A stretch of 64,000 nt of DNA, from positions 124,001 through 188,000 of the forward strand of contig NZ_CABJCG010000001.1 in NCBI RefSeq assembly GCF_902364025.1, read 5' to 3'. The notes under the pieces are model-generated. The model searched no databases, was not told where the DNA came from, and saw nothing but the letters and a program-made list of their open reading frames with translations. Of the stretch, positions 9,467 through 42,335 are shown one piece after another. Source of the stretch: Enterocloster lavalensis (GTDB lineage Bacteria; Bacillota; Clostridia; Lachnospirales; Lachnospiraceae). Within the stretch, counting starts at the first letter, position 1; every line of letters starts with the position of its first letter. The position numbers and the translations under genes are program-made.

Positions 9467-10423
9467 CTACTCCTCCACCGGCGCCATCCGCGTCCGCATA
9501 TAGTCCTCCATCCACTGGGCGGAGGCTTCCTCGCAGGCGCAGTGTCCGTCTCCGCCCCGCTTTACCAGGTAGACGGTGGGTTCCAGGGACTGGGTCACCA
9601 CGGCCACGGAGAAGCCCTCGATGTTGGTGGCAGCCCCCCACTGGCCGCGGTTGTTCATGGCCACCACCGACAGGTCGCCAGCCTCCCCCCTGCGCTCCTT
9701 AAGCTCCGCCTCCAGACGGTTTACCGCCGTCTCGCAGGCCTCCTGGGGGCTCATGCCCTCGCCCATGAGCCGCACGATCTCGTAGGAGATACAGCCCTTC
9801 ATCAGGTCCTCCCCCAGGCCGGTGGCGCTGGCCGCGCCCCGCTTGCTGTCCGCGTAGAAACCGGAACCGGAGATGGGGGAATCGCCCACCCGGCCCTTTT
9901 TCTTCATGAACAGACCGCTGGTGGAGGTGGCGGCGGTCATCCCGCCGCGGTTGTCCAGGCATGCCATGCCCACGGTGTCGTGCCCGGAATAAGGCTTTAA
10001 CTCCTGGGACTTTAATTCCTTCACCCGCTTGCGGTAGTGGGCCTTGGCCCGGTCCGTCAGCATGTTTTTGCGCTCAAAGCCCTCCTTCTGGGCGAATTTC
10101 TCCGCCCCCTCGGCCACCAGCAGGTTGTTCACCTTCTCGCTGCTTAAGCGCCTTGCGATGGAAATGGGGTTGGCGAAGTCGCGGATGGCCGCCACCGCGC
10201 CGATGGACAGAGTGTTGCCATCCATGTAGGCCGCATCCAGCTCCACCTCCATCTCCTCGTTGGGCAGGCCGCCGTAACCCACGGACTTGTAGTACGGGAA
10301 ATCCTCCACCGCCCGGATGGCTGTCTCAACAGCGTCCCCGGAGCTTTTTCCTGCCGCCAGAAGCTCCGCTCCCGCCGTTATCCCCTCAGCGGCCATGCGC
10401 CAGGTTGCGATCATACCCCACAT
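9467..10423 (-). CDS. N(4)-(beta-N-acetylglucosaminyl)-L-asparaginase / isoaspartyl peptidase family (Ntn hydrolase)
   Basis: 318 residues. This is an Ntn hydrolase that self-cleaves before a nucleophilic Thr, seen here as Thr150 in SGHDTVGM. The downstream GDSPISGSGFYAD and GAASATGLGE segments are the substrate-binding loops of the aspartylglucosaminidase branch. Members split GlcNAc-Asn or isoaspartyl peptides. With a PTS, a GH170 phosphoglycosidase and a dipeptidase in the same operon, a glycosyl-asparagine or amino-acid-linked amino sugar is a plausible substrate (inference). An AGGAGGAG site precedes ATG 10423. No signal peptide, so cytoplasmic. Confidence 0.88.
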   Translation of the reverse strand: MWGMIATWRMAAEGITAGAELLAAGKSSGDAVETAIRAVEDFPYYKSVGYGGLPNEEMEVELDAAYMDGNTLSIGAVAAIRDFANPISIARRLSSEKVNNLLVAEGAEKFAQKEGFERKNMLTDRAKAHYRKRVKELKSQELKPYSGHDTVGMACLDNRGGMTAATSTSGLFMKKKGRVGDSPISGSGFYADSKRGAASATGLGEDLMKGCISYEIVRLMGEGMSPQEACETAVNRLEAELKERRGEAGDLSVVAMNNRGQWGAATNIEGFSVAVVTQSLEPTVYLVKRGGDGHCACEEASAQWMEDYMRTRMAPVEE

Positions 10424-10456
10424 ATCAAACTCCTCCTGTGATTAAAAGCAGATTTC

Positions 10457-10963
10457 TTATTTCAGCTGCGCCGTATCCTGGCCGTCCGCCAGGGCCTTGG
10501 CCATCCTGCATAGGTTGTGCAGGGCGTCGTTTAAGCCGGAACCGCCCTTTTTCGGCGTCCTGACAATGGCCACCCGGTCCTTGTAGGCCTGGATCGTGTC
10601 CGCATTTTCCTCGGACATTGCGGCAAAAGCCCTGGACTTGGTGGTGCTGTTCACGTCACAGGCCACCCGGGCGCTCATGGCAGCGTAATCGGCATAGTTG
10701 AAGGCCGGGCCGCAGATCACCACGTCGGGGTTTAACTTGTTCACCATGGCGCACAGCTTACGGCTCACCTCGTCGGGGTCTGCCAGGTAGGTGCCGCTGC
10801 CGCAGCACAGGCAGGCCACCACATGGCCGTCCACCTCTTTTAAGAAGGGCTCCATCATAACCGCCGGGCCCACCGGCTCCTTCTTCCCGGTCAGGGGAAC
10901 CATGGCGTCGTCCTTGGATCCCAGACCAGCCTGGATCTGATCAAATATCATGATAATTTTCAT
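10457..10963 (-). CDS. GrdB-like protein (N-terminal half of glycine/sarcosine/betaine reductase component B family)
   Basis: 168 residues from ATG 10963 (GGAGGA 7 nt upstream). The order of motifs (IFDQIQAGLGSKDD, then GPAVMMEPFLKE, then NPDVVICGPAFNYADYAA) matches the N-terminal part of GrdB, where NQFFAG..., GPVGPG and DLFIAGPAFNAGRYG occur. The C-terminal half with the selenocysteine region is absent. A CLCCGSGTY motif provides cysteines at the position of the family ICGD motif. Catalytic reductase activity is therefore unlikely; its role in a PTS operon is unknown. Confidence 0.65.
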   Translation of the reverse strand: MKIIMIFDQIQAGLGSKDDAMVPLTGKKEPVGPAVMMEPFLKEVDGHVVACLCCGSGTYLADPDEVSRKLCAMVNKLNPDVVICGPAFNYADYAAMSARVACDVNSTTKSRAFAAMSEENADTIQAYKDRVAIVRTPKKGGSGLNDALHNLCRMAKALADGQDTAQLK

Positions 10964-29406: not shown

Positions 29407-30384
29407 ATGAAACAGTCGTTTCCGAAATGCAATCAGTCCGACATGGAATTTGTGATATCCACCAATGAAAAACAGCAGGAAGAGGTTCGGTTTCTCTCCG
29501 GGGATTTCCCGGTTTCCGTCTATACCCAGCACTACCGGCATGCCGCGTCCGACTATGTGCCGCTCCACTGGCACGGCGAGCTTCAGGTTCACTGGATCGC
29601 AGAAGGCGCGCTGGAATACAGCGTCAACGGCCGCCATTTTGTCCTCGGCCCCGACAAGCTTCTCCTGATCAACCGCCGCCAGCTCCACGGCTCCCGGACC
29701 ATGGATGGGGACACCCGGACTCTGTGCATCAACTTTACGCCCGACATCTTTCATCCGCTGATCCGGGAAAACTACGTCCTCCCATTGCTGCAGAGCGATT
29801 CATTCACGCACTCCCTGCTGCTCCTTTTGCCCTACCAGACCGAGAAGCTTAAAACATTTTTGAACTGGAAATGCGAACCTCTGCAGTATTTTTCCGTTAT
29901 CAATTTTCTGTCTCTGGTTTTCGAAGATATTTTAGGAAGCGGCGGGAACACACAAAATCCGCAAGACTATGAAGAGATCAAATTGATCCAGACCATGATC
30001 CGCTTCGTCCAGACCCACTACGCCGAACCGCTGACCGTCCGGCAGATCAGCGACCACGCCATCACCAATAAAAACCGGTGCACTGCGCTGTTCCGCAAAT
30101 ACACCGGCCTGTCTCCCATCAAATATTTAAATGAGTACCGCCTCTACACTGCCAAAAATATGATCGTCAACTCCGACAAACCGATCTCGGAAATCAGCGC
30201 GGATGTGGGCTACAACCAGATCAGCTACTTTATCGAACAGTTTCGCGGCAGCTACGGCCTGCCGCCCCTGAAATACCGGAATCAGTTTGGACGCAGGCAG
30301 ACGTCGGGGCAGGAATCCGGTCAGACTGCCATCTCCCACGCTGTTTCCAGGGCTACCGACATCATATCCCGGAAAGATTCCTGA
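29407..30384 (+). CDS. AraC-family regulator with cupin sensor domain
   Basis: 325 residues with AGGAGG before the ATG. The N-terminal cupin-like sensing domain (about 35-130) has HWHGELQVHWI and a later histidine-containing strand. The C-terminal AraC DNA-binding domain (about 195-300) has LTVRQISDHAITNKNRC and ISEISADVGYNQISYF. A roughly 30-residue tail overlaps the 3' end of deoD on the other strand by 64 bp. Likely target: the divergent amidohydrolase gene or the nearby nucleoside operon (inference). Confidence 0.9.
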   Translation: MKQSFPKCNQSDMEFVISTNEKQQEEVRFLSGDFPVSVYTQHYRHAASDYVPLHWHGELQVHWIAEGALEYSVNGRHFVLGPDKLLLINRRQLHGSRTMDGDTRTLCINFTPDIFHPLIRENYVLPLLQSDSFTHSLLLLLPYQTEKLKTFLNWKCEPLQYFSVINFLSLVFEDILGSGGNTQNPQDYEEIKLIQTMIRFVQTHYAEPLTVRQISDHAITNKNRCTALFRKYTGLSPIKYLNEYRLYTAKNMIVNSDKPISEISADVGYNQISYFIEQFRGSYGLPPLKYRNQFGRRQTSGQESGQTAISHAVSRATDIISRKDS

Positions 30385-31049
30385 CGCTCCAGTGCGGTCA
30401 GGGACTTGTGGGTGACCAGCTGGTCGGAAATCGTCACCATGCCCAGGGCCTTTTTGCCGCAAACGGCGGCGGTGAGGTACAGAGCGGCAATCTCCATTTC
30501 CACGGCCAGAACGCCCAGTTTTGCCAGCTTGTCGTTGAAATCGGCCTGGGGGTGGTAGAAATAATCGCTGGTGCAGACAGTTCCCACATGGCAGCCGATT
30601 TTATTCTGCCCGGCTGTTTTCACAGCGGCTGCCAGCATCGGATAGTCCGCCGCGGGAGCCAGCGTACAGGGGATTCCCAGAGCGTTCGCCATGCCCGAAT
30701 CCGTGGCGCAGGTCATGGCGAGAACCAGATCGCCCAGATCAATATCCGGCTGAATGGCTCCTGCGGAACCGATGCGGATGATTCGTTCCACGTCGAACTG
30801 CGAAAACAGCTCTGTGGCGTAAATACTGATGGAGGGACAGCCCATACCGTGTCCCATGACGGACAGCGTTTTTCCCTTGTAGGTGCCTGTATAGCCCAGC
30901 ATGCCCCGCACGGTATTAAAACAGACAGGATTTTCCAGATAATGTTCTGCGATGAATTTGGCGCGCAGGGGGTCTCCAGGCATAATTACGGTCTTGGCAA
31001 TTTCAGCGTTTTGTACATAGATGGAAGCGGATACAGATTGTTTATTCAT
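30321..31049 (-). CDS. deoD: Purine-nucleoside phosphorylase, DeoD type
   Basis: 242 residues, usual for hexameric DeoD. Motifs include IMPGDPLRAKFIA, MGHGMGCPSISIY, RIGSAGAI and LAVEMEIAALY, and the base-binding Ser-Asp pair in TISDQ. It converts purine nucleosides and phosphate to base and ribose 1-phosphate; some members also take 5'-deoxy or 5'-methylthio analogues. It is the last gene of the importer operon, 14 bp behind the isomerase, and supplies the substrate type that the isomerase needs. Confidence 0.94.
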   Translation of the reverse strand: MNKQSVSASIYVQNAEIAKTVIMPGDPLRAKFIAEHYLENPVCFNTVRGMLGYTGTYKGKTLSVMGHGMGCPSISIYATELFSQFDVERIIRIGSAGAIQPDIDLGDLVLAMTCATDSGMANALGIPCTLAPAADYPMLAAAVKTAGQNKIGCHVGTVCTSDYFYHPQADFNDKLAKLGVLAVEMEIAALYLTAAVCGKKALGMVTISDQLVTHKSLTALERQESFRDMMSVALETAWEMAV

Positions 31050-31063
31050 GGTACTCCCCTTTC

Positions 31064-32131
31064 TCAGTCAAACAGTAAGCGCAGGCTGTCGGAATAAGGC
31101 GGATAGCAGATGCCCTTTTCCGTGATAATTGCGGTGATCAGGCTGTGGTCCGTCACGTCAAAGGCCGGGTTGTAGCACTTGACCTCGGGCAGAGCCTTGG
31201 GTTGTGTATAGAATTTTTCCTTGATCTCCTCCGGCGCGCGCAGCTCGATTTCAATGTCCTCGCCGGTGGGACACTCCAAATCAATGGTGGAGGTGGGGCC
31301 CAGCACATAGAAGGGTATGTTATAATGCCTGGCCAGAATCGCTACGCCGCTTGTGCCGATCTTGTTGGCGGTATCGCCGTTGGCCGCCACCCGGTCGCAG
31401 CCAACCAGGCAGGCCTGTACCCAGCCGTTTTTCATCACAAGGGAGGCCATATTGTCGCAGATCAGCGTGACGTCCACCCCGGCCTTGTAAAGCTCAAAGG
31501 CGGTCAGCCGCGCTCCCTGTAAAAGCGGCCGGGTTTCGTCGGCGAAAACCTTGAAATTGAGGCCCCGCTCGTGGCCCAGCAGAACGGGGCCGATGGCCGT
31601 GCCGTAGCGGGAGGTGGCCAGGGGGCCGGTGTTGCAGTGGGTCAGGATGCTGTCTCCGTCCTTCAGCACTTTCAGACCATTTTCCGATATGGCCGTGCAC
31701 ATGGCGATATCTTCTTTACGAATCGCCAGGCTTTCCCGTTCCAAAAGCTGTAAAATCTCCGGGACCGTTTTATGGGGATTGTCCCGGACCACGCCATCCA
31801 TCCGGCGCAGGGCCCACTCCAGGTTCACTGCGGTGGGACGCGCGGAATTCAGATACGCGGTATTTTTGAAAAACATCCCGGAAAATTCCTTATAGTCCTG
31901 GGTTTTAATCTGCCTGCCCAGCACATAGCTCGCAAAACCGGCGAAAATACCGATTGCAGGGGCGCCGCGGACGCGGAGCATCACAATGGCGTCGTATAAA
32001 TCCTCAGCCTTGGATAAGGTGAGGTATTCCAGCCGGTTGGGAAGCAGCGTCTGGTCGATGATGACGACGCTGTTTTTGTCCGGAGACAATACAACGTTGT
32101 CAAGTTGTTCAATGCGGTCTGTTGTGTCCAT
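31064..32131 (-). CDS. mtnA: MtnA-type aldose-1-phosphate isomerase (5-methylthioribose-1-phosphate isomerase family)
   Basis: 355 residues. Family features: [12 protein letters not shown], the catalytic Cys in [10 protein letters not shown], the catalytic Asp in [18 protein letters not shown], and GPTSTIDL near the end. It isomerises 5-substituted ribose 1-phosphates to ribulose 1-phosphates. The active-site loop reads HCNTGP where classical MtnA has HCNAGA, so the 5-substituent preference may differ. The next enzymes of the classical methionine salvage pathway are absent; instead a class II aldolase gene precedes it by 15 bp. Confidence 0.9.
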
Positions 32132-32146
32132 ATCAGTAGTCCTTTC

Positions 32147-32791
32147 TCATTTATGATTGAAATAGTTCTGCGCTAAAGACTTCATAACGGCGATCTGCTC
32201 CGCCTCGATGAGGTTGGGCGTGCCGATTTGCAGGCACATCTGATAGATCTGAGCCGTCATCTCCAGCACAGCACAGCATTTGAAGGCCATCTCCATGGTC
32301 GCCCCCAGGCACACGGCGCCGTGATTGGCCATCAGGCAGGCGTTATTTTCCCGTCCCAGCGCCTGTATCACATGATCGGCCAATTCCCGGGACCCGGGTA
32401 GGCCATATTTGGCTACGGGCACATCTCCGCCGAATACCTGGGCGCTCTCGTCAATGATGGCCGGGATGGGCATTCCCAGCACTGCAAACACCTGGGAATA
32501 GACGGGATGGGTATGGATCACCGCGTTGACGTCCGGCCGGTTGGCCAGGATGCCAAGGTGCATATCCTTTTCAATAGTGGGCCTCCTGCCGCCCTCCATA
32601 TGATGTCCGGCAGCGTCAAACACCACCACGTCCTCCTCGGTTAAAAGGCTGTAATTCATGCCGGATGGCGTGAGATAGATATAACCTGTCTGTGGATCTC
32701 TCAGGCTGATATTTCCCCATGTTTCCACCGTCAGACCACGGCCCAGCATATTTTTTCCCGCTTCAATCAGCGCCTGTTTCATATTCTCCAT
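32147..32791 (-). CDS. Class II aldolase (fuculose/ribulose-1-phosphate aldolase type)
   Basis: 214 residues from ATG 32791 (GAGGTG site). Zinc ligands are the His pair in VIHTHPVYS and the His in MANHGAVCLG; the acidic residue is in PTIEKDMHL. Such enzymes split ketose 1-phosphates to DHAP and an aldehyde. Placed between a nucleoside importer and an MtnA-type isomerase, it fits the aldolase of the DHAP shunt known for 5-methylthio- and 5-deoxyribulose 1-phosphate. Fuculose or rhamnulose phosphate would be the alternative, but no kinase or isomerase for those is here. Confidence 0.88.
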   Translation of the reverse strand: MENMKQALIEAGKNMLGRGLTVETWGNISLRDPQTGYIYLTPSGMNYSLLTEEDVVVFDAAGHHMEGGRRPTIEKDMHLGILANRPDVNAVIHTHPVYSQVFAVLGMPIPAIIDESAQVFGGDVPVAKYGLPGSRELADHVIQALGRENNACLMANHGAVCLGATMEMAFKCCAVLEMTAQIYQMCLQIGTPNLIEAEQIAVMKSLAQNYFNHK

Positions 32792-32804
32792 AATTTCACC
32801 TCTA

Positions 32805-33728
32805 TTATTTGACTTCTTCAAAATGTTTCCCCTCAAAGGCCGCCATGCCCCGATTGCCCCTGACAAACATGAGCGCAACCACGGTCACGCAGTATGGGAG
32901 CATACGCAGCAGCTGGGAAGGAATGTTCAGGTCCTGCAGAGACAGCTGCGCCGCATCCGCCAGGCCGAAAAGCAGGCTTGCGCCCAGAATCCCGGCGGGA
33001 TTGCTGGAGCCAAGAGCGCAGATTACGTTGGAAATGTAACCTCTGTCCGAGGACATGCCCTCCACAAACATATTCATCTGGCAGACTGAAAGGAACGCCC
33101 CGGCCAGACCGGCCAGAATGCCACAGAGCAGCATACACATGTACTTGTAGCGGTTGACCCGGATTCCGGATGTGCTGGCAACGTAAGGGTTATTTCCGAT
33201 GATGCGGACCCGCATGCCGAATTTTGTCCGGAACATCAAAAACCAGGTCAGGGGCACAAGTAAAATGGCGAGGTAGGTCACCAGAAACTGCCCGGTAAAG
33301 AGCGCTCCCACCAACGGGATATCTGCCAGAAGAGGCAGATCCAGCCCCTTGATGGAGGCCACCGGCGGAGAGTTTGTGGACGAGCCCCACATAGTCTGGA
33401 GGAAAATGCCAACCAATGCGGCCACCAGCATGTTCAGGCCCAGGCCGCCGATGATGTGATTGACATGACAGCGGATGCAGAGCCAGCCGTTGAGCAGCGC
33501 CAGCGCGGTGGAGGCAGATATGCCCATCAGTAAACCCAGCCACGGATTTGCGGTGAGATGGGAACCGACCACGGCTGAGAAAGCGCCGATTGTGATCATC
33601 CCCTCTACGCCCAGGGGCATAATACCGCATCGGCTGGCGAACATGCCTCCGACGGAGGCCAGCAGCAGCGGGGTGCCCATGCGCAGCGTTGCGCTTAAGG
33701 TCATCTCTAAAAGTTTAAGAATATCCAT
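32805..33728 (-). CDS. Nucleoside ABC transporter permease (NupQ/YufQ-like)
   Basis: 307 residues with about eight to nine membrane segments. It has the family stretches LLLASVGGMFASRCGIMPLGVEG (N-terminal third) and NNPYVASTSGIRVNRYKYM. The second of two permeases in a BMP-type importer. Separated by 27 bp from the first permease gene and by 13 bp from the aldolase gene. Confidence 0.92.
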   Translation of the reverse strand: MDILKLLEMTLSATLRMGTPLLLASVGGMFASRCGIMPLGVEGMITIGAFSAVVGSHLTANPWLGLLMGISASTALALLNGWLCIRCHVNHIIGGLGLNMLVAALVGIFLQTMWGSSTNSPPVASIKGLDLPLLADIPLVGALFTGQFLVTYLAILLVPLTWFLMFRTKFGMRVRIIGNNPYVASTSGIRVNRYKYMCMLLCGILAGLAGAFLSVCQMNMFVEGMSSDRGYISNVICALGSSNPAGILGASLLFGLADAAQLSLQDLNIPSQLLRMLPYCVTVVALMFVRGNRGMAAFEGKHFEEVK

Positions 33729-33755
33729 AATAATCCTGCCTTTCTGCCGTGCAAG

Positions 33756-34847
33756 TCACCGCTGGGTTGCGGGCGATTGTTGTTCCGCCTCTTTTACACG
33801 GTTGGATTTTTTGCGCCCCCAGGCTTCAAGGGACGAGGTAAGCTTTGGCGCGGCGATTAAGATAATGGCCACCGCCTGGATGAGATCCACGAACTCCATC
33901 GGAGCCTTTGTCATAATATTCAGGCGGATGGCTCCAGCCTTAAGCCCGCCAAAAAGCAGCGAGGATGCGATACAGGCCAGGGGATTGCCGCCTGCCAGCG
34001 TGGAGACGGCCACCCCGTCAAATCCAAAGCCGGGTGAAAAGTCGTTGATATAGCGTCCCAGGTAACCCAGCACATGGATCGCGCCGCAGAGCCCTGCTAT
34101 ACCACCGCTTAAAAACATGGTGTGGTAAATCGTGCGATTGATATGGATGCCGGAGAAACGCGCAACCGCTGGGCTGTTTCCGACGATGTTCATTTCAAAG
34201 CCCCTTGCGGTGCGTTTAAAGTAAAAATACAGCACCACGGCCAGCGCCAGCGCGATCAGAATACCAATGGACAGATTATTGCGCTGGCTGAGCATAGGCA
34301 GCATGATGTCCTCACTCACAGACTGGGTTTGGGCAACATCCCCCGGGGTGCGCAGGGGGCCGGATACAAAATAGCCGGTGATATATGTAACGATGGAGTT
34401 CATCATAATGGATGTGATAAACTCATGGGCATTAAAACGGATTTTCATGAACGCGATAAACGCGCCGCACAGTCCCCCTCCCGCCATGGCCGCCGCTATC
34501 GTCACGAAAATGTGCGCGAAGGGTGGAAGTCCCTGGGCGTACAGGCCTACCAGCGTGGCGATAAACGCGCCTGCACAGAGCTGGCCCTCTATTCCGATGT
34601 TGATCAGTCCCGCCCGGGTGGCCACGGTAAAAGCCAGACCGGTGATCAGTATGGGCGTCATGCGGAACAGGGTGCCCAGGAGCGCATTTTTATTTCCAAA
34701 AGCGCCTTTAAAGATAGAGCCGAAGATATTGAGAGGGGAATAGCCGATGACCAGAATCATCACCGAAGTCACAGCGAAGGCGGTCAGGAGGGCCGCGGCG
34801 GGATGAATCAATTTCCTTCCAACCAATTTAAAACCTTGTTTATTCAT
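33756..34847 (-). CDS. Nucleoside ABC transporter permease (NupP/YufP-like)
   Basis: 363 residues, about ten membrane segments. The central LINIGIEGQLCAGAF and, later, GNSPAVARFSGIHINR are typical of the larger permease of BMP/Nup importers. The start overlaps the ATPase gene by 8 bp, so translation is probably coupled. A Gln/Glu-rich cytoplasmic tail ends the protein. Confidence 0.92.
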   Translation of the reverse strand: MNKQGFKLVGRKLIHPAAALLTAFAVTSVMILVIGYSPLNIFGSIFKGAFGNKNALLGTLFRMTPILITGLAFTVATRAGLINIGIEGQLCAGAFIATLVGLYAQGLPPFAHIFVTIAAAMAGGGLCGAFIAFMKIRFNAHEFITSIMMNSIVTYITGYFVSGPLRTPGDVAQTQSVSEDIMLPMLSQRNNLSIGILIALALAVVLYFYFKRTARGFEMNIVGNSPAVARFSGIHINRTIYHTMFLSGGIAGLCGAIHVLGYLGRYINDFSPGFGFDGVAVSTLAGGNPLACIASSLLFGGLKAGAIRLNIMTKAPMEFVDLIQAVAIILIAAPKLTSSLEAWGRKKSNRVKEAEQQSPATQR

Positions 34848-36375
34848 GCTTAACCCCCTCTTTCTCCAGCCGGCCGGTCAGCATCAGCATCCCCAGCTCC
34901 AACTCTGTGAAATCGTCGCTTTTGCCGTCCGCCACGATTTTTCCCTCGTACATGACGATCAGATGATCCGCCAGCGCCCGCACCTCGTCTAAATCCGCCG
35001 AAATGACCAGCGCCGCGTTCCCCTGATCCCGGTACTCGAAAATCCGGCTGTGGATGTTGTGAATGGCCCCGATGTCCACGCCGCGGGTCGGCTGGGCAAA
35101 AATGGCAAATCGCGGCTCCCTGCTCAGCACCCGGGCGATAATGACCTTCTGCTGGTTCCCGCCGGACAAGCTGCCGATGGGCACGCGGTAAGATGGCGCT
35201 TTCACCGCAAATTTTCCCATGGCCTCCTTTGCGAACTGTTTCCATTGCTTCAATCGCAGAAATCCATGCCTTGTGGCAAATTTTTCAGCCCTGTGATAGC
35301 CCAGCACCACATTGTCGCAGATGCTTAAGGAGGGAACCAGGCCGGTGGACAGGCGGTCCTCGGGAACCAGGGCGATGCCCTTATCGATCATGGCTCTGGT
35401 GTCTCCTCCCACCTTTTCACCGTAGAGATACAGATCCATGGTGTCCGGCTTCAGATTGCCGCTGAGGGCCTCCTGGAGCTCGCGCTGGCCGTTGCCCTCG
35501 ATGCCCGCCACGCCCACGATTTCCCCCTTGGCGATATAGAAGCCGATGTTGTCCAGGACTTTCTTGCCATTGACGGTATAATTCAGGTTTTCCACTCTGA
35601 CGGCAATCTCTGGGGAAATGACTTCACTTCGCTGCGTAACGTTCAGCGGAACATTGCGGCCCACCATGAGATCGGCCAGAATCTGAGGCGTCAAATCCCG
35701 GTTCTCCATATTGGTGGAGATCATTCGGCCGTCGCGCATGACGGAGATGCGGTCGGCAATCTCCAGACATTCCTTGAGCTTGTGGGTGATCATCACGATG
35801 CTGGTGCCCTGAGCCTTTAGAATCTCGATGATTTCAAAGAGAACCTCCACCTCCTGAGGCGTCAGTACCGCGGTGGGTTCGTCCAGGATAATGATTTTCG
35901 AGTGCCGGTAAATGGTTTTTAGAATCTCGATTCGCTGCTTCTCTCCCACCGTCAGGTCGCAGACCATGGCCAGGGGATCGATGTCGAACCGCAACCTCTG
36001 GGCCAGCTCGTTGATTTTTTCGATGATTTTGCGCTTATCCAGCCTCAGGCCGGTTTCGTCCTCAAAGCCCACCGCCACGTTTTCATACACGGTCATGTTC
36101 TCCACCAGCATAAAATGCTGATGGACCATGCCGATGCCGCAGTCAATGGCATCCCGGTTATGCTTAAAATGCACTTCTTTGTTGTTGACCAGTATTTTAC
36201 CGCTGTCCGGCCGCATCATGCCGTACAGAATGCGCATCAGCGTGGTCTTACCCGCTCCGTTTTCGCCCAGTAGCACATGGGTCTGGCCGCCTTCCAGCCG
36301 GATACTGGCATCCGTCAGGGCCTGTACCGAGCCGAAGCTCTTGCTGATGTGTTGAAGCTCCACCGTATTCATCAT
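34840..36375 (-). CDS. Nucleoside ABC transporter double ATPase (NupO/YufO-like)
   Basis: 511 residues with two fused ABC domains. Domain 1 has Walker A LGENGAGKTT (about 36-45), signature LTVGEKQRIEIL and Walker B IIILDEPTAVLT. Domain 2 has the degenerate Walker A GVAGIEGNGQ, signature LSGGNQQKVIIARVL and FAQPTRGVD. This is the arrangement of sugar and nucleoside importers of the RbsA/NupO class. It lies 15 bp after the binding-protein gene. Confidence 0.94.
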   Translation of the reverse strand: MMNTVELQHISKSFGSVQALTDASIRLEGGQTHVLLGENGAGKTTLMRILYGMMRPDSGKILVNNKEVHFKHNRDAIDCGIGMVHQHFMLVENMTVYENVAVGFEDETGLRLDKRKIIEKINELAQRLRFDIDPLAMVCDLTVGEKQRIEILKTIYRHSKIIILDEPTAVLTPQEVEVLFEIIEILKAQGTSIVMITHKLKECLEIADRISVMRDGRMISTNMENRDLTPQILADLMVGRNVPLNVTQRSEVISPEIAVRVENLNYTVNGKKVLDNIGFYIAKGEIVGVAGIEGNGQRELQEALSGNLKPDTMDLYLYGEKVGGDTRAMIDKGIALVPEDRLSTGLVPSLSICDNVVLGYHRAEKFATRHGFLRLKQWKQFAKEAMGKFAVKAPSYRVPIGSLSGGNQQKVIIARVLSREPRFAIFAQPTRGVDIGAIHNIHSRIFEYRDQGNAALVISADLDEVRALADHLIVMYEGKIVADGKSDDFTELELGMLMLTGRLEKEGVKHE

Positions 36376-36390
36376 TACGCCCTCCGCTGT

Positions 36391-37452
36391 TTACTTGCAG
36401 TTTTCCGTGACCCACTGATCGATCTCGTCGAATGTGGTTGGTAATTTCAGTTCGCCGCCAGCAACCTTCTCGGCCGCGGCGTAGGCCTCGTCGATGATCT
36501 CCTGGGGTACCTTCAAATTGGAGTCCTCGAAATACATAACGAATAATCCGCTCTCAATACCGCCGTACTTCGTCTTGGAGGTCCAAGTGCCATCCTGCAC
36601 GGCTTTGATGTCGTCAAAAATCTGATTCTCAATGGGGTTCAGAGTAGAATGAGGCACCAGATCAGGGGACATGGCATTCAAATTGGTCGCCGCCCCGGTG
36701 ACATACCCGCCGCTGAGCTCAGCGGCATTCAAAAGGCCAAAGCCGGCCTTGCCGCAAAAATCCTGGATGATATCCGCGCCCTTGCTGTACTGGGCGATGG
36801 CCAGTTCCTGGGCTCTGTTGGTGTCCACAAAATCCCCCACCACGCTGGTCAGCACTTCCACCTGGCTGTTGGCGTACTTCGCGCCGCAGATATAACCCAC
36901 TACAGGTCTGGTTTGAGGCGGTATTTCCATGGCATTTATGATGCCGATGACAGCCTGATCATTGGCGTTGGGAAGGGCGTCCATGGTGGTCAGCTTGCTG
37001 TTTAGGTAGCCGGACATAAACAAAAACTCTTCCCAGAGCGCCGACTGGCATGAAATGTTATCCATGGTGACTTCAAAACTGTTGGCGGAAAATTTCTGCT
37101 CAGGAAAACTCTTGGCCGCGCTCACCAGCGCCTCTTTCTGTTCCGCGCCCAACGCGATGATCAGGTCGAACTCCCCGGAGCTTGCCAGCTCCATAAAGTA
37201 GGCATCGTAGTCGCTGTACTCCTTGGGTTCCACGTTCGTATAGCTGACGCCCAGTTCCTCCTTTGCGCGCTCCAGCGCAATCAGGCCGCTGTCGTTGATG
37301 GATTTGTCCCCAAGTCCCGAGGTTGTGTGCACCATGGCCACCTTGATCTGGTCTGAGGCTTTCCCGTCCTCGGCTGCGCCGCAGCCGCTTGCATTTGTCA
37401 GTACAACTCCCATAAGCAGTACAAGTGTCAATGCTCTTTTCATGATTTTCAC
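36391..37452 (-). CDS. BMP-family nucleoside-binding lipoprotein
   Basis: 353 residues, starting at GTG 37452, which has AAGGGGG 9 nt upstream; ATG 37443 lies too far from that site. A signal peptide ends in the lipobox NASGC (Cys near residue 24). The mature part is a BmpA/PnrA-type binding protein (VAMVHTTSGLGDKSIND, DLIIALGAEQKEAL, ADIIQDFCGKAGFG). This family binds purine nucleosides in characterised members. It is the first gene of the importer-catabolism operon. Confidence 0.92.
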   Translation of the reverse strand: MKIMKRALTLVLLMGVVLTNASGCGAAEDGKASDQIKVAMVHTTSGLGDKSINDSGLIALERAKEELGVSYTNVEPKEYSDYDAYFMELASSGEFDLIIALGAEQKEALVSAAKSFPEQKFSANSFEVTMDNISCQSALWEEFLFMSGYLNSKLTTMDALPNANDQAVIGIINAMEIPPQTRPVVGYICGAKYANSQVEVLTSVVGDFVDTNRAQELAIAQYSKGADIIQDFCGKAGFGLLNAAELSGGYVTGAATNLNAMSPDLVPHSTLNPIENQIFDDIKAVQDGTWTSKTKYGGIESGLFVMYFEDSNLKVPQEIIDEAYAAAEKVAGGELKLPTTFDEIDQWVTENCK

Positions 37453-37536
37453 AGTTTTGTTCCCCCTTGTCATTTTTTATAAACTGTTTCAGAAATGCTG
37501 TAATACCATTTCCCATCGATCTGTTTCTTGTAGGTG

Positions 37537-37664: not shown

Positions 37665-38345
37665 TTAAAGTTTGAAATTAATGAACGCATCGGTCTGTTT
37701 TAATATCTTAAGTCCACCCGGTACTTTTTCCACAACACCCTCCGAAACCAGCTCGTCCAGGATTCTGCACATATGCCGGTAGCTGATTCCCAATTTCAAC
37801 GCCACCTCCGTGGGCTTGAAGGCGATCACATCGCCGTCTGTGCTCCGGTGCTCGTCAATATAACCCAGGGTGCGCGACTTTGCATCGTAAACCAGACTTT
37901 TGGACAGTCCCCGCGAGCTGACATCCAGTTTTTCCATGGTTTTGGTACAGATATATAACAGAAACTGTGCCCTGCCGGTTAAAACCTGCTGCACATATCT
38001 GCTTGGAATTGCGACGGCCTTCCCGGCCTTAAACATCTTCACATCATAATAGGACTTTTTAATCTCGGCCAGATTCAAAAGCAATTCCAGATCCCCGCAG
38101 ACCTCGCCTGCGTTCAGATAATCCAGCAAAGCCTGTTTGCCATCCTTGGAGAGGGGCAGAACCTGGGCGCATCCCGTCAGGAAGATATAAAGGTACGACG
38201 GCTGTACGCCCGCCCGGGTCACATACTCGCCCCGCTCAAACTCTGCGATAAAAATATGATCCAGATCGCAGGGATCAAAAATATGTTCCAGGTCATGCTT
38301 TTTCAAATTATGTAAAATGTATTTCTTAGAATCGTTTTTCTTCAT
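37665..38345 (-). CDS. Crp/Fnr-family transcriptional regulator
   Basis: 226 residues from ATG 38345 (GGAG site). The N-terminal beta-roll (about 25-125, FERGEYVTRAGVQPSYLYIF, LNAGEVCGDLELL) is a cyclic-nucleotide-type effector domain. A dimer helix follows, and the C-terminal winged helix has PTEVALKLGISYRHMCRIL (about 175-200). No cysteine cluster typical of Fnr is present, so a small molecule, perhaps nucleoside-related, is a likelier signal (inference). It lies between the importer operon and the divergent SAHH-like gene, both of which have the same operator. Confidence 0.92.
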   Translation of the reverse strand: MKKNDSKKYILHNLKKHDLEHIFDPCDLDHIFIAEFERGEYVTRAGVQPSYLYIFLTGCAQVLPLSKDGKQALLDYLNAGEVCGDLELLLNLAEIKKSYYDVKMFKAGKAVAIPSRYVQQVLTGRAQFLLYICTKTMEKLDVSSRGLSKSLVYDAKSRTLGYIDEHRSTDGDVIAFKPTEVALKLGISYRHMCRILDELVSEGVVEKVPGGLKILKQTDAFINFKL

Positions 38346-38362
38346 TTTTTCTCCAAAATGTA

Positions 38363-38403
38363 GACAAATGTCATGTCGGAAGGCTGCAAAATACGTATAT
38401 ACT
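38363..38403 (+). promoter_or_regulatory. SAHH-like gene promoter with the shared Crp/Fnr-type operator
   Basis: GACAAATGTCAT (38363-38374) is the exact reverse complement of the 12-nt site at the importer promoter. A -10-like TATACT at 38398-38403 lies 25 nt downstream (24 nt in the importer promoter), placing the operator centre near -42. No good -35 is seen. The site also lies in front of the divergent regulator gene, so autoregulation is possible. Confidence 0.7.
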
Positions 38404-38444
38404 GGCGGTATCAAATCTCAAATGTTGAAAGGAGACAACATCAT

Positions 38445-39629
38445 ATGAAGTCCATAGTCAAAAACCCGGAACTGGCGGCCAGCGGCGCAGAACGTATGAA
38501 ATGGTTTCGTGAAAGGATGCCCATCGTCACCGCCTACAACGAACGTTTTAAGAGAGAGCAGACCTTCAAGGGTAAGGTGATCGCCACCACCATGCACATT
38601 GAACCCAAATCCGCCTACTGGGTCGAGGGCATGCTGGCCGGAGGCGCGGAGCACATCTACTTTGTGGGTTATCTGGGCACAACCAAGGACGACACCGCCG
38701 CTTATCTGGCCTCCCTTCCCCGCATGACGGTTCTGGGCAAATCCGATGATACATACGAGGAGCATCTGGCCAATCTGGACGCCGTAATCAACAACGGCAA
38801 AAAAATCGACCTCTTCCTGGACAACGGAGCCGCCTTCATCCTTGCCCACAAACGCTGCAACCCGGGCTGGCTGCCGGACGGCGCCAACGAGGAGACGCGC
38901 TCCGGACGGCTTTACGTGGAGCAGGAACACTACGAAGCTCCCTACCCCATCGCAGTCATCGACGATTCCGCCCTGAAACGCCTGCTGGAAAACTACACAG
39001 GCGTGGGCCAGTCCGTGGTAGACGGATTCATGCGGGCCACCAGCCTGCTTGTAGGCGGTAAAAATGTCCTGGTGTTCGGCTACGGCTACTGCGGCTCCGG
39101 CGTGGCGGCCAAATTCAAGGGCCTGGGAGCCAACACTATGGTCTACGACAACAACCCTCTCTACCAGCTCAAAGCCAAGGTGGACGGGCACATTGTGGGC
39201 GACAAGGAGGAGCTCATCTCCCGGGCGGACGTCATTGTAACGGTCACGGGCAGCTTCGGCGTCATCACCACCGATCATATCCCGCTGTTCAAGAACAAGG
39301 TGATTCTGGCTAATGCCGGTTGTCTCGGCTTTGAGATCGACTTAAAGGGCCTGGAGGAAAAGGCTGACAGCAAATCGAACATGCGGGCCGGCGTGGAGAA
39401 ATACACCTACGGTGATAAAGATATCTACGTTCTGGCCGGCACCCACGCCCTGAATCTGGCGGCGGCGGACGGCAATCCTATCGAGATTATGGACCTGGGA
39501 CTCGCCCTGCAGGCAGGCTGCGCCGAGCGAATCGTCAAAGCGCCCGAAACCCTTGTAAACGGCTTGCAAAACGTCCCAGACGACATCAGCCTGGAAGTCT
39601 GCAGAATGTCGCTGGAAGCACAAAAATAA
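38445..39629 (+). CDS. S-adenosylhomocysteine hydrolase-like protein with altered active site
   Basis: 394 residues from ATG 38445 (GAAAGGAG). It is clearly of the SAHH family: NAD-binding GYGYCGSGVAAKFKGLGA (212-229), ETRSG (Glu150), DDSALKRLLEN (Lys178, Asn183) and LNLAAADGNP. Compared with the well-studied enzyme by my alignment: His55 is kept (His51), but Thr57 becomes Glu53, Glu59 becomes Lys55, Asp190 becomes Glu182, His301 becomes Cys293 and His353 becomes Asn344. The C-terminal Lys/Tyr (HYRY) tail that reaches the neighbouring subunit's NAD is missing. NAD-dependent 3'-oxidation chemistry may survive, but SAH is probably not the substrate. It is divergent from the Crp/Fnr-type gene. 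Confidence 0.85.
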   Translation: MKSIVKNPELAASGAERMKWFRERMPIVTAYNERFKREQTFKGKVIATTMHIEPKSAYWVEGMLAGGAEHIYFVGYLGTTKDDTAAYLASLPRMTVLGKSDDTYEEHLANLDAVINNGKKIDLFLDNGAAFILAHKRCNPGWLPDGANEETRSGRLYVEQEHYEAPYPIAVIDDSALKRLLENYTGVGQSVVDGFMRATSLLVGGKNVLVFGYGYCGSGVAAKFKGLGANTMVYDNNPLYQLKAKVDGHIVGDKEELISRADVIVTVTGSFGVITTDHIPLFKNKVILANAGCLGFEIDLKGLEEKADSKSNMRAGVEKYTYGDKDIYVLAGTHALNLAAADGNPIEIMDLGLALQAGCAERIVKAPETLVNGLQNVPDDISLEVCRMSLEAQK

Positions 39630-39838: not shown

Positions 39839-39874
39839 AAATCACAATCTATCTGGGAGGAATAGAGAACATAG

Positions 39875-40100
39875 CATAGCTAAGCGCCAAGCACCTTTTT
39901 CCGGGACCGTGAACAGTCGGAGGCTTCAAACGCCCTGCGCTGCCGGAGAGAAGGTTAACGAGGTGGAGAGAGAATCGAAGTTTTCGGCGGGTGCTCTCCC
40001 ATGCCGTCCGGGCGTGTAATGCGCAGTGAAATATGCGGGTAACCGCAAAACAAACGCGGCGCAACCGGACGCCCTGTCCCATCGTCAGGGTCATTCAGAA
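39875..40100 (+). ncRNA. glmS ribozyme (glucosamine-6-phosphate riboswitch)
   Basis: The conserved core is plain: AAGCGCC at 39882-39888, with cleavage expected between A39883 and G39884. The metabolite-binding core follows as TTAACGAGGTGGAG and TCGAAGTTTTCGGCGGGTG, then CTCTCCC (about 39955-40000). Arms such as CGTCCGG/CCGGACG close the 3' domain. The RNA cleaves itself when glucosamine 6-phosphate binds, which leads to decay of the glmS mRNA and so limits amino-sugar synthesis. The exact 3' end is estimated. Confidence 0.93.

Positions 40101-40508: not shown

Positions 40509-42335
<1,827 letters not shown>

Follow-up and report, generated by a model that had tools for sequence, protein, structure and literature searches.

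A misleadingly named clade of SAHH-like proteins with a probable role in nucleoside salvage and a predicted chemistry

The window analyzed here, a 64,000-nucleotide stretch of an Enterocloster lavalensis contig, carries a gene for a 394-aa SAHH-fold enzyme (38445–39629, + strand) that we placed in an Asn/Glu/Asn clade from its open reading frame, family matches, alignment, tree, and model. Its ribosome-binding site, AAAGGAG, was read from the sequence at 38428–38434 (+). The protein has the SAHH fold with an NAD-binding Rossmann domain, and its closest sequence match was MmaSIHH (7r3a). It scored above the cut-off of the NCBIfam model NF004005 ‘adenosylhomocysteinase’ (306.3 vs 275 bits) and below that of TIGR00936 (277.3 vs 497.6 bits). 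Rfam found no SAH or SAM riboswitch in the window (glmS ribozyme only) or in seven related loci (one tRNA only). The glmS ribozyme (RF00234, 50.9 bits; 39872–40072, +) lies upstream of a glmS-like gene (40509–42335).

The gene faces a minus-strand operon across a divergent Crp/Fnr-family regulator (37665–38345, −), assigned by family match, whose start we chose by eye as an ATG lying within the ORF 37665–38414 and whose closest NCBIfam model, YeiL, stayed below cut-off. The operon encodes a nucleoside ABC importer, consisting of a BMP-type (PnrA-like) lipoprotein as binding protein (36391–37473, −; Pfam Bmp), a double ATPase (34840–36375, −; family match), and two permeases (33756–34847 and 32805–33728, both −; BPD_transp_2). 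These are followed by a class II aldolase (32147–32791, −; Aldolase_II; start set by eye at an internal ATG), an MtnA-type 5-methylthioribose-1-phosphate isomerase (31064–32131, −; TIGR00512, 396.3 bits, cut-off 279), and a DeoD-type purine-nucleoside phosphorylase (30321–31049, −; TIGR00107, 293.3 bits, cut-off 232.25). The aldolase passed no curated NCBIfam equivalog (Ald2 is 5-deoxyribulose-1-phosphate aldolase). By analogy, this importer-phosphorylase-MtnA-aldolase set appears to resemble the DHAP shunt. Escherichia coli with mtnK-mtnA-ald2 grows on 5'-deoxynucleosides according to the available portions of PMC12632272 and PMC10986504, and a 5'-modified nucleoside as substrate of the window enzyme would therefore suit these genes. 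The stretch 30321–37473 (−) is possibly a pathway for exogenous 5'-deoxynucleosides in a Clostridia relative; it has a BMP-type importer of its own, and a DeoD-type phosphorylase stands where Pfs/MtnK would be. On the contig of the closest relative (L001:4947-7595), the importer operon breaks off within permease 1, after which comes a gene resembling, by eye, uracil phosphoribosyltransferase; the break is either an assembly join or a real loss.

We assigned residues by alignment to PfuSAHH, with the numbering checked at seven residues. The window protein retains H51, E150, K178, and N183 (Pfu H55, E153, K183, and N188), and where the human enzyme has Thr57, Glu59, His301, and His353, it has E53, K55, C293, and N344, just as a first-pass annotation had read from an alignment made by eye. 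That annotation took the four replacements and the missing C-terminal tail as signs of a new function, and here it held only in part. E53 and K55 (codons within 38601–38609, +; aligned to PfuSAHH E57/K59) belong with H51 to the base-binding HxExK motif, which in the available text of PMC10978960 marks SIH-preferring archaeal and archaeal-type bacterial SAHHs and contacts base N1 and O6 through its Glu and Lys; the same text gives archaeal enzymes a short C-terminus. Since active archaeal-type SAHH/SIHH have all of these features, neither Thr57Glu and Glu59Lys nor the short C-terminus was accepted as a sign of novelty. His301Cys (codon C293, 39321–39323, +) keeps its value for the closest kin of the window protein and was discarded as a general clade feature, since this gate position is His in 154 of 164 clade rows and Cys in 6. 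The Gly-His-Phe gate, completely conserved among the SAHHs compared in the portion of PMC4647836 at hand, reads G-C-L in the window protein.

The first-pass annotation had overlooked two changes. N127 (codon 38823–38825, +) stands at the position of Pfu D128 and human Asp131, and E182 (38988–38990, +) at that of Pfu D187 and human Asp190. According to parts of PMC4647836, Asp131 donates a proton to C4', the 5'-OH is bound by His55, Asp131, and His301, the 2'-OH by Glu156 and Asp190, and the 3'-OH by Thr157 and Lys186, while Cys79 and Asn80 line the homocysteine channel; D139 of lupin SAHH has the role of Asp131 in C4' proton transfer in the accessible text of PMC13406329. The window protein thus lacks both the catalytic Asp131 and the Asp190 contact to the 2'-OH, in addition to His353, replaced by N344 (codon 39474–39476, +).

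To place these changes in the family, we aligned 221 distinct rows, dropping identical rows and proteins of ≤370 aa; most rows came from a search that used the window protein as its starting query and are not a random sample. With the clade defined as Asn or Thr at Pfu 128 plus Glu at Pfu 187, 164 rows fell in the clade, 48 were canonical, and 9 were neither. Pfu D128 was Asn in 163/164 clade rows and Asp in 48/48 canonical rows, and D187 was Glu in 164/164 and Asp in 48/48, counts that are descriptive because these columns define the clade. Position 350 and the tree served as checks. Pfu H350 (human His353) was Asn in 163/164 clade rows and His in 48/48 canonical rows. A tree of 62 rows put all 34 clade rows sampled on one side of a single branch (support 100/100), and support was 93/100 in a 63-row tree that included a very divergent Klebsiella row (L082), bearing out the separate clade for which the first-pass annotation had proposed a phylogeny. 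This clade, across Bacillota and Pseudomonadota, is jointly marked by Asn/Glu/Asn, and our literature searches, which had partial coverage, found no description of it. It comprises three groups: F (Bacillota, including the window), P (Pseudomonadota), and V (a Vibrio nigripulchritudo plasmid, Ensifer, and Paenibacillus). Six rows outside the clade, five from actinobacterial/mixed MAGs plus L036, had His350Asn with both Asp retained. A tree joining them to the clade was not rejected (p-AU 0.103), and the His350Asn of the clade, L036, and the actinobacterial rows may have a single origin.

The rest of the active site divides into conserved and altered parts. The HxExK motif and the 3'-oxidation and NAD residues E153, T154, K183, and N188 (Pfu numbers) were present in 164/164 clade rows, and the equivalents of catalytic His55, Glu156, Lys186, and Asn191 were invariant. 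The changes outside the defining columns lie mainly close to the 5' end of the nucleoside. They include S79G (163/164), L82G (162/164), and Thr192Val (164/164), and N80 was retained in 43/164 rows and gate Phe299 in 57/164. D128, L82, S79, N80, and the gate H298-F299 (Pfu) showed little or no variation among the 48 canonical rows.

Clade members were uncommon, and the following figures are lower bounds with weak matches only partly checked. We found them in at least 4/398 Bacillota genomes (by score gap), 14/245 Paenibacillaceae, 2/25 genomes in the order of G428, 2/385 in the class of the Agrobacterium genome (G513 confirmed, one of the two being the query centre), and 1/369 in the class of the Vibrio genome, this being the query centre itself with two copies. 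None occurred among 61 relatives of the nearest genome, where all 7 strong matches were canonical at the checked positions. Twenty gammaproteobacterial regions picked by score as candidate members were all rejected: 18 held SAHH with canonical residues and 2 (L147, L164) no SAHH above threshold. Of three more regions, L167 was in the clade, L169 was canonical, and L168 carried a pair of very divergent SAHH-like genes on one gammaproteobacterial contig (L168:4576-5718 and 9604-10758), one beside an adenosine deaminase-like gene. Other divergent relatives were SAHH-like proteins with Pro at the place of His55 and DDR for DDG (L038:2949-5400 and L081:7989-9251), the former encoded in tandem with an H350N SAHH-like gene, and the Klebsiella record in the tree (L082:5986-7095), which is annotated adenosylhomocysteinase and is without several catalytic residues.

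The genomes with a clade gene that we sampled had other means of disposing of SAH. They comprised 20 records, counted as 19 genomes since G428 and G466 had identical coordinates, all other than the genome of the window. A separate canonical SAHH above the TIGR00936 cut-off was present in 13/19, and the remaining 6 (Acidaminobacter, Vibrio, two Shewanella, Photobacterium, and Ferrimonas) all had an MTA/SAH nucleosidase above cut-off, so that 19/19 had a second SAH-disposal enzyme. This redundancy bears on whether the clade consists of ordinary archaeal-type SIH/SAH hydrolases co-regulated with nucleoside genes by chance, which we regard as distinctly unlikely. HxExK, the closest match to MmaSIHH, and the NF004005 score would fit an ordinary hydrolase, and so would L036, a locus outside the clade whose enzyme has canonical Asp residues and His350Asn (L036:8206-16192, in the order MtnA, Crp-family, SAHH-like, BMP, ABC importer), suggesting that an operon of this kind can accommodate SAHH chemistry. 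Against it stand the replacement of both Asp131 and Asp190, the missed TIGR00936 cut-off, and the second enzyme in every genome tested; a rat D130N enzyme, moreover, reportedly retains <1% activity.

Gene neighborhoods pointed to nucleosides and to regulation. A Crp-family gene adjoined the enzyme in 16/16 F loci (window, L001-L011, L113, L114, L170, and L171); the two genes are divergent in all of these except L010, where they lie tail to tail. Together with the exchange of two catalytic Asp, this could suggest a catalytically weak nucleoside-binding protein serving as a sensor, a role made highly improbable by the four invariant catalytic residues in 164 rows. P loci frequently had a LysR gene (18 loci), with NupC downstream. 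In a Paenibacillus locus (L170) the SAHH-like gene was followed by PNP, a xanthine/uracil-family permease, a nucleoside:H+ symporter, and a Gfo/Idh/MocA oxidoreductase, and in L003 by PNP, a permease, a symporter, and a metalloenzyme-superfamily gene that we read as DeoB. The L003 phosphorylase passed an inosine/guanosine-specific model, which fits HxExK. The V. nigripulchritudo plasmid (L078) had the order nucleoside hydrolase, SAHH-like, adenosine deaminase, ribokinase, then NupC, and in L028 adenosine deaminase lay directly upstream of the SAHH-like gene.

We counted nucleoside genes within 6 kb, using query genes drawn partly from clade loci and excluding L115, whose region is that of L009, and six loci from outside the clade (L036 and the five from Actinobacteria). 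They were present in 19/52 clade loci (F 6/16, P 12/28, V 1/8), which are related rather than independent, many being Vibrionaceae or Shewanella, compared to 0/20 other SAHH loci, mostly gammaproteobacterial (Fisher p = 0.0008), and 0/13 canonical loci of the 13 genomes that also had a clade member (Fisher p = 0.007). Both flanks reached 6 kb in 46/52 clade loci and in 13/20 and 13/13 control loci. Pairing by genome weakened the linkage to 3/13 clade vs 0/13 canonical loci, which alone is not significant, and 33/52 clade loci had no nucleoside gene inside 6 kb. A Gfo/Idh/MocA gene lay within 6 kb in 6/8 V loci, 6/16 F loci (L170 with a V-type homologue), and 0/33 controls. It recurred beside the SAHH-like gene in Paenibacillus (L170:2339-3331, L175:5768-6760, homologues), and another member of the family adjoined the SAHH-like gene in Ensifer (L079). 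Solved structures of the family include sugar 3-ketoreductases and 3-dehydrogenases, and the oxidoreductase is possibly a functional partner of the SAHH-like enzyme.

The separate clade, the altered catalytic Asp, the second SAH-disposal enzyme, and the recurring nucleoside genes support reading the clade as a nucleoside-salvage paralogue rather than the cell's SAH hydrolase, which at the class level, with activity predicted, we consider likely. The NAD-dependent nucleoside-processing enzyme of the first-pass annotation is compatible with these same lines of evidence, although two of its four residue arguments and the C-terminus fell away; its suggestion of corrinoid-like nucleosides found no echo in any result of this analysis. 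Several observations count against salvage. With His55 invariant and His301 kept in most rows, SAHH-like 5' chemistry may persist; the NF004005 cut-off is passed; most loci are without a nearby nucleoside gene, the linked loci are kin, and the paired test is weak; and Asp190Glu is left unaccounted for by 5' specificity.

A complete mechanism for such a paralogue is nearly evenly balanced between right and wrong in our judgment. An archaeal-type SAHH/SIHH paralogue would have been recruited to salvage, with E53 and K55, judging from the HxExK motif, binding a 6-oxopurine (hypoxanthine- or guanine-type) nucleoside. The conserved residues suggest that bound NAD+ would oxidize the ribose 3'-OH with K178, N183, and E182, and the 3'-keto group would activate a neighboring C-H for an elimination/addition step before NADH restored the 3'-OH. 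The net effect would most likely be to turn an imported phosphorylase-resistant nucleoside into an ordinary one, to be cleaved by the linked phosphorylase or nucleosidase. The altered channel residues point to a substrate most likely changed at its 5' end and without homocysteine. After the loss of Asp131 we infer acid/base catalysis at C4' or C2'. Either the carboxylate would have shifted from 127 to 182 with 5' chemistry kept, as favored by the conserved His55 and the altered channel, or 5' chemistry would be off and C1'-C3' chemistry left, as favored by Asp131Asn.

The second option can also stand as an account of its own, in which only C1'-C3' chemistry occurs, with 3'-oxidation followed by base loss (an NAD-dependent nucleoside hydrolase) or epimerization; Asp131Asn would have disabled 4',5' chemistry. 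We think this unlikely. The residue assigned to C4' proton transfer (PMC13406329 and PMC4647836, in the portions cited above) is Asn in nearly all clade rows, base release is a side reaction of SAHH described in part of PMC10978960, and the oxidoreductase is linked in 6 V loci and L170. Yet the 5'-acting His55 is invariant, several operons already hold a phosphorylase or nucleosidase that would make base release redundant, and five of the six oxidoreductase-bearing V loci belong to one genus. Also rather unlikely, in our view, is that the clade represents the first SAHH-fold group with a reaction other than thioether hydrolysis, acting on phosphorylase-resistant nucleosides either as an NAD-dependent nucleoside hydrolase or as a sugar isomerase/epimerase, with a Gfo/Idh/MocA partner in some bacteria. 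Such an enzyme would need no oxygen and would therefore be open to anaerobes.

The nucleoside-salvage reading matters for annotation. The clade scores above the NCBI adenosylhomocysteinase cut-off and its members with names shown are mostly so called, probably misleadingly, and pathway reconstructions would credit such bacteria with an SAH hydrolase that the clade gene may not provide. If the salvage reading is true, SAHH 3'-oxidation chemistry extends to nucleoside catabolism and offers a testable entry into modified-nucleoside use by bacteria, including anaerobes. The available text of PMC12709175 calls bacterial use of 2'-O-methyl nucleosides largely unexplored and brings up SAH hydrolases solely as potential targets for inhibition.

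Among known systems, the clade shares with archaeal-type SAHH/SIHH (MmaSIHH 7r3a, PfuSAHH 7r37) the fold, NAD domain, HxExK, short C-terminus, and 3'-oxidation residues, and differs in the replaced equivalents of Asp131, Asp190, and His353, the changed homocysteine-channel loop, the separate branch, and the linkage to nucleoside genes. With canonical bacterial and eukaryotic SAHH (EC 3.13.2.1) it has in common the fold and the His55, Glu156, Lys186, and Asn191 equivalents, whereas the canonical enzymes have the base motif HxTxE/Q, a long C-terminus, and catalytic Asp131. The DHAP shunt of 5'-deoxynucleoside catabolism consists of a nucleosidase or phosphorylase, MtnK, MtnA, and Ald2, and the operon facing the window enzyme shares with it a phosphorylase, MtnA, and a class II aldolase. 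Compared to the E. coli DHAP-shunt operon, as far as the available accounts describe it, the DeoD-type phosphorylase, dedicated BMP-type importer, and SAHH-like enzyme are found in the window only.
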